32,181 nt of DNA from positions 3,543 through 35,723 of the forward strand of contig PFCD01000004.1 in assembly GCA_002778455.1 (NCBI GenBank), in the 5' to 3' direction. This stretch comes from Candidatus Micrarchaeota archaeon CG10_big_fil_rev_8_21_14_0_10_45_29. GTDB taxonomy: Archaea; Micrarchaeota; Micrarchaeia; Anstonellales; Anstonellaceae. Below are positions 18,695-30,309 of the stretch, piece after piece. The notes beneath the pieces were generated by a model. That model saw only the letters and a program-made list of their open reading frames with translations. It was not told where the DNA came from and made no database searches. Each line of letters starts with the position of its first letter. The stretch's first letter is position 1. Made by a program: the position numbers and the translations under genes.

Positions 18695-18705
18695 CTATAA
18701 AAACC
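18695..18705 (+). promoter_or_regulatory. TATA-like box upstream of the structured leader
   Basis: CTATAAAAACC predicts a start near 18725, just before the hairpin-rich stretch. In a window where most starts are leaderless this would give an unusually long, structured leader. Confidence 0.4.
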
Positions 18706-18726
18706 TTCAAGTGCCTAATAATTGCA

Positions 18727-18896
18727 GTAAAAATGGCATCCCTTCCTATGGCTAAAGACCATAGTGTCCTGCCGTGGGGAGGGGGTCGGGATTAAACCTA
18801 AAACCAGGGGGAGGGGTGAAAGCCCTTGTACAAAGTGCTTTGCACTTTGGCATCCCAAATCGCCGAGGCGATTTGTAGGACCCTGCGGTTTAGGTA
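18727..18896 (+). ncRNA. Candidate structured RNA or leader, unrecognised family
   Basis: No protein frame of interest occupies this stretch. Directly visible hairpins: ATCCC(18738)/GGGAT(18788) enclosing CTATGG-7-CCATAG (18746-18764); GGGT-GAAA-GCCC with a GNRA tetraloop (18814-18825); CAAAGTGC-TTT-GCACTTTG (18831-18849); CAAATCGCC-GA-GGCGATTTG (18856-18875). Two longer pairings cross each other: GGGTC (18783-18787) with GACCC (18879-18883), and CCTAAAACC (18797-18805) with GGTTTAGG (18887-18894), so a pseudoknot or two alternative folds are possible. It ends 14 nt before the start of the secreted-protein gene. Lacks features of tRNA, RNase P or SRP. Cis-regulatory leader or independent RNA; covariance search would decide. 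Confidence 0.5.
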
Positions 18897-18909
18897 ATGG
18901 GGGATTTTT

Positions 18910-20637
18910 GTGCAAATAAAATTCATATTTTTGATAACTTTGCTTCTTGCCTCTTTTGCGTTTGCGCAAGGAATGGAAGCGTCCGGAGACGTGAGCGTGC
19001 AGTATGTGCAGGGAGGGCTTGAGCTTGAGAGAATATTGCAAATAAAGCCTGCCACAACTGTTTATGCCGCCACAGGAGCCATGGTGCAGGCATATGAGAG
19101 CCATATTACAATTATTGTGAAAAATGTTGCGCAGGATGCAAAGAAAAACCTTATTTTAGAGGAAGATTTGAGCTATTTGCCCCCGAATGCGAGGATAACA
19201 TATGTGATTTCTCCGGACATCTCTGATGGAAGAGGGGCAAAATGGAATATTGACTCGCTTTTATCCGGAAAAAGCTTTGAGATAAAATTCAGCGTTCCTG
19301 CAATAATTCCTGCGCAGAGGGTAAAGCAGCTTCCTGCGCCAAAGGTTTACTTTGAGAGCGGAGGGTATGAGCTTGTTGTGCCTGCAAAAGTTAGCAAAGG
19401 GGATGGAATAGAGCTTGAGGCAAAGTCTGCGGCAGGGATGCCTGTTCCGGGCGCACTTATTTATGTCACTTACCCCGATGGCAGGGAGAGCGCTGTTGCA
19501 ACAGGGGCGGATGGAAAAGTGAAAATTTTGGCAGAGCTTGAGGGAGAATACTTATTTCAGATGCAAAGCGGCGGGCAGGGCGCAAAAACGATTGCAAGCA
19601 TTATAGAGGAGAGCGTGCCTGTGCAGCCGGATATAAAAGAGGAGGCGCAGGAAGAGGCGGGCTTTGACTTTTTGGGGGCAATAATTTCCGCATTTGCATT
19701 CGCGATAGGCGCGATTGTGATAATTGCAATATTATATTCAATATACAAATACCTCACCGCCCCTGTTGAGGATGAGGAGGGCTCGCCCTTGCCGCCTGCC
19801 CCTGCAACAAAGATGCCTACGCACGAGGTTGATGGAGAGCGGATGCAGATGGCGCAAGAGGATGCCAAAATGCTTGGCAGGCAGGCAGATTATGAGTATG
19901 CGCAAAAAAAGGAGAGATACCCCAAGCCCCCTCAAGAGCCGAGCGAGAGTGAAATTGAGGAGGGCACGCGCGAGCTTTTGCTAAAGAGAAGGGGAAATAA
20001 AATTTACCCGGAAGAGGCGCAGGGAGAGCAGACAATTATATATGAGCCCCCGCACTCGGCTTTTGAGCAAAGCACTGTTGATAAAGAGGAAGAATATTCT
20101 TCGCAAGAGGAAAGTGTGGCGCAAATGCAGGATGGAAGGCAGGAGATGCGAATAGATGATTCGCAGGAAGAGCCACAGATGCATATAGATGACGAGGCGC
20201 GGGCAGAAGCGGCTGAAGAGGAGATGGATGAGGCGCCCGCACCCAAAATGCAGGAGGATATGGAATCTGCCACCCAGGATGATTACTCTGCGCAGGATGA
20301 TGATGCCTCTTTTAAGGAAGAGGATATTGATGATGAGGCAATTCAGAAAACAATTGCAGAGCTTGAGCAGCTTCGCGCCCAGCTAAAAACAGGCATGAAA
20401 GAGGAGAAGTTCCCGCAAGAGGAAGTCTCTGAGAGCGATATTGAGCAGCTTGTTGAGGAAACAGAGGATGAGATGCAAATAATTCGCCCCATAGCAAAAA
20501 AAGCGCCTGCAAAAATTGCTAAAAAAGAGAAGGCGTCAAAAATTGTGAAGAAAGCAAAAGCTGCAAAAAAGGCAAAGCATTCCAAAGAAAAGAAAAAGAA
20601 CACAGAGGCAAAGAAAGGCAAACGCAAAAAACGCTAA
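18910..20637 (+). CDS. Exported membrane protein with large charged cytoplasmic tail
   Basis: A 575-residue protein. Residues 1-20 are a signal peptide (MQIKFIFLITLLLASFAFAQ). The ectodomain, about 21-255, contains beta-rich units; one near 170-220 reads PVPGALIYVTYPDGRES...DGKVKILAELEGEYLF, like a CNA-B/carboxypeptidase-regulatory fold. A membrane helix follows near 257-282 (AFAIGAIVIIAILYSIY). The remaining 290 residues are cytoplasmic and very charged: mostly acidic with D/E/Q repeats to about 525, then a lysine/alanine tail (KKAKAAKKAKHSKEKKKN). Start is GTG, 5 nt after GGGGGAT. Preceded by the structured RNA stretch. Function unknown; tail could bind nucleic acid or ribosomes. Confidence 0.75.
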   Translation: MQIKFIFLITLLLASFAFAQGMEASGDVSVQYVQGGLELERILQIKPATTVYAATGAMVQAYESHITIIVKNVAQDAKKNLILEEDLSYLPPNARITYVISPDISDGRGAKWNIDSLLSGKSFEIKFSVPAIIPAQRVKQLPAPKVYFESGGYELVVPAKVSKGDGIELEAKSAAGMPVPGALIYVTYPDGRESAVATGADGKVKILAELEGEYLFQMQSGGQGAKTIASIIEESVPVQPDIKEEAQEEAGFDFLGAIISAFAFAIGAIVIIAILYSIYKYLTAPVEDEEGSPLPPAPATKMPTHEVDGERMQMAQEDAKMLGRQADYEYAQKKERYPKPPQEPSESEIEEGTRELLLKRRGNKIYPEEAQGEQTIIYEPPHSAFEQSTVDKEEEYSSQEESVAQMQDGRQEMRIDDSQEEPQMHIDDEARAEAAEEEMDEAPAPKMQEDMESATQDDYSAQDDDASFKEEDIDDEAIQKTIAELEQLRAQLKTGMKEEKFPQEEVSESDIEQLVEETEDEMQIIRPIAKKAPAKIAKKEKASKIVKKAKAAKKAKHSKEKKKNTEAKKGKRKKR

Positions 20638-21100: not shown

Positions 21101-21709
21101 TTAATCAAATGCGAATTTGCTTAATTTTATCCAGTTGGGCTCATTATTTTGCACATATGCAAGCACAATTTCCATTCTTAGCTGGCGTGCGGCAGTTATT
21201 TGCACCTCAATGGATTTGAGAGATGCTTGCCAATTTTTTGGAAGAAGGAAAATTAGGGTTTGCGCCCTTTCCTGCTCCCGCCCTACTCCTCGCGCATGCA
21301 CCCGCCAGTATTGGGGGGGTGAGGGGGAGAGGCGCACTACCCTTCCCCTCTCTCGCAAATGCTTGAAAAGGGCATATTGCTCTTGCAAAGAAGGCAATTT
21401 GGCAATAACTTCCCCGTTTGCGCCTTTTCTGGCATTTTTTGCGGGCTTGTTTTTTTTATTTTTGGCGGGAGCAGGGCTTTTTTTGTTTTTTTCAGACAAG
21501 TGTTTTTCCCCTTCAATAAGAATTTTTTTAACATCCATTTTATTTTTTCCCTGCATTATCGGCAAAAGTGAAGTTTGGCTGACATATGCAGCTTCTAAAG
21601 GGTGCAAAATTACATCTTTGCCCTCGCGCCTTCCAAGCCCGCACTGCAAAAGCCGCAATGCCTCGCTCTCATTTGAGGAGAGAAATTTGTGTCCCTTATA
21701 TTCTGCCAT
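21101..21709 (-). CDS. tRNA-splicing endonuclease-like subunit without catalytic residues
   Basis: A 202-residue protein with the two-part layout of archaeal EndA. The N-terminal part reads EALRLLQCGLGRREGKDVILHPLEAAYVSQ, like EndA's 'lyerGyGr...LsplEAlYL'. A lysine-rich linker (about 75-100) follows. The C-terminal part is YALFKHLRERGRVVRLSP...YWRVHARG, TLIFLLP, ITAARQLRMEIVLAYV. In active subunits these positions hold Tyr (FRVY), His (HSEYLV) and Lys (RK); here they appear to be His138, Arg148 and Met179. It is therefore probably a structural subunit of an alpha-beta or related enzyme, as in Nanoarchaeum. Divergent from cysS over a shared TATA box. Confidence 0.6.
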   Translation of the reverse strand: MAEYKGHKFLSSNESEALRLLQCGLGRREGKDVILHPLEAAYVSQTSLLPIMQGKNKMDVKKILIEGEKHLSEKNKKSPAPAKNKKNKPAKNARKGANGEVIAKLPSLQEQYALFKHLRERGRVVRLSPSPPQYWRVHARGVGREQERAQTLIFLLPKNWQASLKSIEVQITAARQLRMEIVLAYVQNNEPNWIKLSKFAFD

Positions 21710-30037: not shown

Positions 30038-30309
30038 GGCAGGATAGGTTGGGCGGCTAGGGGCCGCCTGTTAGCGCAAACCCCCTTCAGGCGCAACTAA
30101 AATGCCTTGGGCGTATGAGGTGTTTATTCAGTGCGTGAGACAGCCGGCGTCGAAGCCATGCCTGCATGGGCGGAATTGTAAGCGAACCTGGTCAGACCGG
30201 AAGGAGCAGCCATAAGTTTTGCAGCCCCGTGCTTTGCAGTTAACCTGGTGGAGCTTGGCTTTTCAAAATGCAGGAATAGGCATTTTATGCTACCTTGGCT
30301 CCTCCTGCC
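30038..30309 (+). ncRNA. Signal recognition particle 7S RNA
   Basis: The diagnostic helix 8 segment is seen at 30185-30210: CCTGGTCAGACCGGAAGGAGCAGCC, containing GGTCAGACC, the CGGAAGG tetraloop hairpin and the AGCAGCC asymmetric loop that binds SRP54. The 5' GGCAGGA (30038-30044) pairs with 3' TCCTGCC (30303-30309), forming the terminal helix of an archaeal SRP RNA; the first 50 bases fold into the Alu-like domain (GGGCGGCTAGGGGCCGCC). About 272 nt, near family length. Ends are approximate. Works with SRP54/SRP19 in targeting secreted proteins such as those encoded in this window. Confidence 0.92.

Follow-up and report, generated by a model that had tools for sequence, protein, structure and literature searches.

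A probable worn copy of a dispersed, putatively triplex-forming DNA repeat upstream of a Micrarchaeota gene

The locus upstream of the 575-aa gene

The stretch of DNA analyzed here (the window) comprises 32,181 nucleotides of contig PFCD01000004.1, from a Micrarchaeota genome bin referred to below as G000. It contains a strongly folded region, located after a TATA-like box and ahead of the start codon of a gene for a 575-aa protein, that was described in an initial annotation as a candidate structured leader RNA. Comparison with other genomes indicated that this region holds a match to a dispersed repeat, which we refer to as element E. The features of the locus are as follows.

18695..18703, + strand: TATA-like box CTATAAAAA, assigned from sequence; TATA-like boxes also lie before several orthologues of the downstream gene
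18734..18775, + strand: type-A 5' extension (CATCCC..GGCTAAA..CTGCC), with partial complementarity to the third strand
18770..18896, + strand: element E, full covariance-model match (model R1, 44.8 bits, E-value 2.5e-10)
18776..18785, + strand: putative G-rich third (reverse-Hoogsteen) strand GGGGAGGGGG, based on mirror covariation
18786..18796, + strand: conserved linker TCGGGATTAAA (family consensus TCAGGANNAA), based on the layout of copies
18797..18805, + strand: 5' side of the basal stem, CCTAAAACC, based on covariation
18806..18816, + strand: hairpin purine arm AGGGGGAGGGG, which mirrors the third strand, based on mirror covariation
18817..18880, + strand: insert in the hairpin loop, with palindromes at 18829-18849 and 18856-18875; similar palindromes lie within other E copies
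18881..18894, + strand: what is left of the C-rich arm (CCCT), then the GCG junction and the basal stem's 3' side, GGTTTAGG (18887-18894)
18894..18896, + strand: right end of E, which in other copies is directly abutted by tRNA genes, stop codons or flanking direct repeats
18910..20637, + strand: downstream gene (575 aa), with a signal-peptide-like N terminus; outside E

All of the motifs on which the leader RNA proposal was built were found in place: CTATAAAAA, CCTAAAACC, GGTTTAGG, GGGTC (18783-18787), GACCC (18879-18883), ATCCC (18738 and 18852) and GGGGGAT (18899-18905). The observation of structure was also sound, based on the fact that 18695-18910, folded as RNA, is much more stable than shuffled sequences (-87.2 kcal/mol versus a shuffle mean of -66.1, z -4.34, with 0 of 200 shuffles equal to it); the fold of 18722-18912 had a z of -3.56. 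As the annotation had expected, the region resembles no family in Rfam, there being no match in Rfam 15 at the gathering threshold and only chance-level matches at permissive thresholds.

The sole domain match of the 575-aa protein was to CarboxypepD_reg, and it was weak and under the cut-off. An orthologue of its gene was identified in 18 of 19 related genomes searched, and in several of these a TATA-like box is situated roughly 25-50 nt ahead of the putative start, as read by eye; this box-to-start distance, in some orthologues of this gene alone, is also the extent to which the premise that most genes here are leaderless was checked. We believe that the 575-aa gene probably has CTATAAAAA at 18695-18703 as its native promoter, and since E is placed between this box and the start codon, it probably lies within the transcript leader. 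No E was detected near the gene in any of the 19 orthologous loci fetched (~1.5 kb flanks, model E-value <=1), the match at 18770-18896 itself excepted. The homologues upstream of the same gene by which the annotation had proposed to verify its leader are therefore lacking, the 18 relatives with an orthologue having loci without E, and a leader RNA dedicated to the 575-aa gene was rejected on this basis. The simplest reading of these sequences is that E lengthened the leader by inserting between the TATA-like box and the start codon, and the exceptional length of the leader would then be due to this lineage-specific insertion.

Distribution and anatomy of element E

A DNA search identified partial copies of E on other contigs of G000 and in related genomes. 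Covariance model R1, which was built from an alignment of nine short-loop copies, had 13 matches in G000 (a few of them weak or antisense), 29 in G014, 34 in G012 and 28 in G032. Under strict filters (R1, E-value <=1e-6), E was present in 43 of the 301 Micrarchaeota genomes searched, with no more than 34 matches per genome, demonstrating its dispersal. Owing to the strictness of the pattern used, a scan of GTDB genome contigs returned three exact matches only, each from Micrarchaeota or from an uncultured archaeon, and there was no match to E among phages, plasmids and viral contigs. As judged from these searches, E is a previously unnamed dispersed DNA repeat of Micrarchaeota of ~70 nt. The structured element seen ahead of the 575-aa gene is thus real, but it is not tied to that gene, since there are many copies per genome, at unrelated sites and in both orientations.

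E is made up of a hairpin preceded by a G-rich third strand and by a TC(A/G)GG linker, and over the 74 copies that were examined with their flanks the consensus runs GGGGGAGGG-TCAGGANNAAC-basal stem-AAACTGGGGAGGGGG-loop-CCCCCTCCGCGGTT-basal stem. In alignment A2, whose counts lean towards structure as it was fitted to the model and includes some antisense partial matches, 14 of the 16 hairpin pairs were changed on both sides and 96.3% of cells were paired; cells with double changes numbered 147, versus 38.5 after shuffling, and there was a clear fall once the partners were slid. The basal stem is imperfect, and its exchanges (GTC/GAC, CGG/CCG, GCC/GGC and AGAA/TTCT) are seen in the raw sequences too. 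Copies in G032, G054 and G056, all of one genus (L175, L176, L079, L188 and others), have in addition a conserved left extension of ~45 nt, TGCGTAAGGAGTACG..GCAAAG..GTGAAGTGGGG.

These comparisons separate the two crossing pairings that had been proposed for the leader. The CCTAAAACC/GGTTTAGG pairing corresponds to the conserved basal stem, with compensatory changes, whereas the GGGTC/GACCC pseudoknot was rejected because it is not conserved among E copies. In the other copies, GGGTC is part of the third strand and linker (GGGTCAGG) and its GACCC partner is absent, while the GACCC at 18879-18883 arises at the junction of the palindromic insert and the damaged C-rich arm. That insert (18817..18880) stands in place of most of the C-rich arm. 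We consider the copy at 18770-18896 to be worn, its loop containing two palindromes that belong to another type of dispersed repeat, and it may no longer form a triplex because only CCCT is left of its C-rich arm. The second palindromic hairpin repeat family (e.g., TCCTACAAA...TTTGGGATCCCAAA...TTTGTAGGA) is found within E loops at 18829-18875 and in copies L007, L067, L163 and L164. Hairpins similar to these palindromes also lie inside the tRNA-Leu gene of G008 (L070).

The type-A 5' extension (18734..18775) is shared with copy L006, which lies upstream of an aldolase-like gene and in which this subtype is intact. Based on this pair, one could argue for a cis-regulatory, riboswitch-like leader RNA that sequesters the ribosome binding site of this gene or of a set of genes, as the fold of 18695-18910 is strong and both type-A copies closely precede start codons, have the same orientation and share a 5' extension. 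The proposed switch, in which ATCCC would pair with GGGGGAT, is not supported, however, as the ATCCC at 18852 is inside the inserted palindromic repeat and GGGGGAT is outside E. Considering also the worn state of the copy, its absence from the orthologous loci of 18 relatives, and the position of most E copies at tRNAs, 3' ends or opposite genes, we regard a leader RNA as quite unlikely, even in the milder form in which the type-A copies were co-opted as leaders after insertion, which is conceivable for the copy at 18770-18896 and L006.

Third strand covariation follows DNA triplex rules

The leading G-rich run of E is a mirror image of the purine arm of the hairpin, and the two vary together. 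An A in the purine arm faces A or T in the mirrored position of the third strand in 40 of 43 cells, versus a shuffle mean of 12 and a maximum of 22. Among 20 distinct copies, 107 of 120 triads were canonical (90 G*G-C, 14 A*A-T and 3 T*A-T). All 17 A-T duplex positions face A (14) or T (3), as compared with a mean of 4.2 and a maximum of 10 in 5000 shuffles, although such shuffles overstate independence because the copies share ancestry. About ten distinct patterns of A positions agree between the third strand and the purine arm, however, and from the alignments it is hard to explain so many matching registers through descent alone.

The third strand is an antiparallel mirror that obeys G*G-C, A*A-T and T*A-T, and on comparative grounds its covariation follows the rules of an antiparallel purine-motif DNA triplex and not those of RNA pairing. 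Based on the fact that the purine arm is mirrored by the G-rich strand that precedes it, single-stranded G-rich DNA of E could fold as a class I triplex. The T residues in the third strand argue against a pyrimidine triplex of the C-rich strand. Purine-motif triplexes have been reported as unable to form in RNA, according to the statement in PMC4666352 citing Semerad and Maher (1994). In our interpretation, it is in DNA that the triplex would form within cells.

The covarying hairpin could alternatively belong to genes for structured small RNAs that act in trans, as a family that has spread by duplication, an expectation with which the tolerance of loop inserts and the A/T-rich, TATA-like sequence upstream of some copies are consistent. 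We think this unlikely, as a small RNA would not account for a third strand that behaves as expected of purine-motif DNA: the 3 of 17 positions at which T faces A fit G-strand DNA, while the complementary strand would need A*A-T, which is outside the pyrimidine-motif rules. In addition, the copies have no fixed promoter or flank, and their right ends are flush with tRNA genes in both orientations.

The common form of E has four G tracts with one-base A loops, and the tracts might therefore be kept for a G-quadruplex and not for a triplex. Copies with GGGGGGAATCAG/CTGAAGGGGGG and GGAGGATCAG/CTGAGGAGG break the tracts but keep an exact mirror and a paired C-rich arm. Such copies exclude a G-quadruplex as the main constraint, and we consider this explanation very unlikely. 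A triplex-capable hairpin is the reading that we prefer for the strand arrangement of E.

Insertion sites and mobility

The right end of E is its precise end and shows a preference for the ends of tRNA genes. In 22 of the 74 copies it is <=8 nt from a tRNA gene boundary (15 at the tRNA 3' end and 7 at the 5' end), whereas the left end is near a tRNA boundary in 0 of 74. Convincing flanking direct repeats were found at 17 loci (for these scores the null 99% value was 30 and the maximum 38, which 12 loci reached), and in 16 of the 17 the right copy of the repeat begins at an offset of -4 to 0 nt relative to this right end; the exception is L007, in which the match is cut by an internal palindrome. 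E is lineage-specific in its presence, and orthologous sites without it were also identified. In G005, the flanks of copy L071 of G008 overlap by a repeat of ~41 nt; in G002, the sequences on either side of L148 adjoin each other at the 3' end of tRNA-His (the left flank ends at 1617 and the right begins at 1619); and in G054, the gene adjoining L177 holds a single copy of the repeated segment. Four minus-strand loci were compared through local alignments.

Based on the direct repeats, the tRNA-flush right ends and the empty sites together, we conclude that E inserts, or has inserted, with one precise end, and we consider E to be mobile, or recently so, as far as genome comparison can indicate. 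The flanking repeats vary in length from 14 to 153 nt. At L069 (G005:C4:324341-324830), E is bracketed by two copies of the glnA 3' end; as compared by eye, the first ~42 nt of the two copies are identical and beyond these there are 20 codon differences, 19 of which are synonymous. The flanking repeats of L177, L157 and L158 resemble this pattern. Simple target duplication is inadequate for flanks of such variable length, some of which differ mainly at synonymous sites, and the L069 type of flank suggests that a diverged homologue was involved, through recombination or import.

A location at tRNA and gene ends would also be expected of a transcription terminator or RNA-processing signal, and several right ends are flush with convergent apparent stop codons as well as with tRNA ends. 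We find this extremely unlikely for E since it is also at tRNA 5' ends (7 of the 22) and in both orientations, has no U tract, and is missing from an orthologous site that retains the tRNA gene. In L140, L151, L155, L160, L166 and L173, a convergent gene has its apparent stop codon exactly at the right end of E, and E may supply this codon. At L165 (G005), E abuts the 3' end of a tRNA-Ala(CGC) gene, and this gene is seemingly inverted between L165 and L237 (G008:C29), which have the same left neighbor.

Proposed mechanism and comparison to other repeats

Insertion of E remains our preferred explanation, and 18770-18896 is likely a worn copy of a non-autonomous dispersed repeat with a triplex-capable hairpin that inserts with its right end flush. 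In the mechanism we propose, the G-rich DNA strand, which precedes and mirrors the purine arm of a hairpin on an imperfect basal stem, would adopt a class I intrastrand triplex of the purine motif once single-stranded. The folded E would be recognized in trans by an enzyme. The right end of E is the exact base of the hairpin, and in new copies this end directly meets the end of a tRNA gene, the end of another gene or a duplicated target; the enzyme and the mode of insertion are parts of the proposal itself. At 18770-18896, insertion between the TATA box and the start codon would have produced the long folded 5' leader as a by-product. We propose more tentatively, as an idea with somewhat less than an even chance of being correct, that in DPANN archaea E represents a class of mobile DNA element not described before, recognized as a folded single-stranded triplex-hairpin and inserting its hairpin base flush with tRNA or gene ends.

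MITEs, ERIC, Correia and RUP are miniature intergenic repeats whose mobilizer is unknown. E is like them in being about 70-120 bp, non-coding, hairpin-forming, dispersed, near genes and lineage-specific, and, as for MITEs, its copies are dispersed, their ends are defined and orthologous sites lacking it exist, although in E the right end is precise and the left is not. Unlike these repeats, E has only one precise end, with neither terminal inverted repeats at both ends of the unit nor a target duplication of fixed length.

The REP/RAYT and IS200/IS605 systems, in which a hairpin is recognized on single-stranded DNA, are the obvious model for E. In contrast to them, no GTAG-type tag was seen in E by eye, flanking duplications occur, and several E-rich genomes have no Y1 transposases. 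The Y1 HUH transposase (PF01797) was absent in G000, G032, G054 and G056, each of which has at least 9 E matches, and reverse transcriptase (PF00078), as a retroelement using target-primed reverse transcription would require, was absent in the incomplete assemblies of G000, G012, G032 and G056. Both were rejected as the mobilizer as there was no correlation with E copy number. No recurrent gene next to E was found as a candidate autonomous partner, and the recurrent ORFs near E seemed, from their coordinates, either to coincide in part with E or to be members of orthologous loci. Conceivably the mobilizer comes from outside or is missing from the incomplete assemblies.

Intrastrand triplex repeats have been described in E. 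coli and other bacteria as TM_ECO, BoxC or PIT (Holder et al., 2015; PMC4666352). TM_ECO is a class II repeat (Y-R-third strand) of 37 nt that is nearly invariant, for which the authors saw no link to mobility, and in E. coli there was no clear in vivo triplex signal (PMC4666352). Similar to TM_ECO, E is a short, G/C-rich, dispersed intergenic multicopy repeat with a predicted purine-motif intrastrand DNA triplex and without an associated enzyme. It differs in being archaeal and class I (third strand-R-Y), with another consensus, in its covarying basal stem, conserved linker and triad-level covariation, and in its flanking duplications, empty sites and preference for tRNA ends. E combines features of miniature mobile repeats and of intrastrand triplex repeats, a combination that is not reported for either in the open-licence literature that we found.

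With respect to a possible cellular role of intrastrand DNA triplexes, the E. coli repeats are too uniform for sequence comparison to separate structure from descent. E has many divergent copies in which three strands change together, the kind of comparative evidence that lies behind established RNA structures. If our interpretation is true, the triad covariation of E would be comparative evidence of natural selection keeping a DNA triple helix. E also points to a mobilization process in Micrarchaeota that lands at tRNA and gene ends, and what look like folded "leaders" in such genomes may turn out to be inserted repeats.

Other features of the window

Archaeal RNase P RNA was rejected as a candidate because RF00373 matches elsewhere (G000:C7:10339-10588, 84.8 bits). 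Downstream of the 575-aa gene, a putative metallopeptidase gene (PF18894; 20676-21077) adjoins a tRNA-splicing-endonuclease-like gene (21101-21709). At 30040-30297 there is an SRP RNA, which matched the bacterial large SRP model (64 bits) despite the archaeal origin of the genome.
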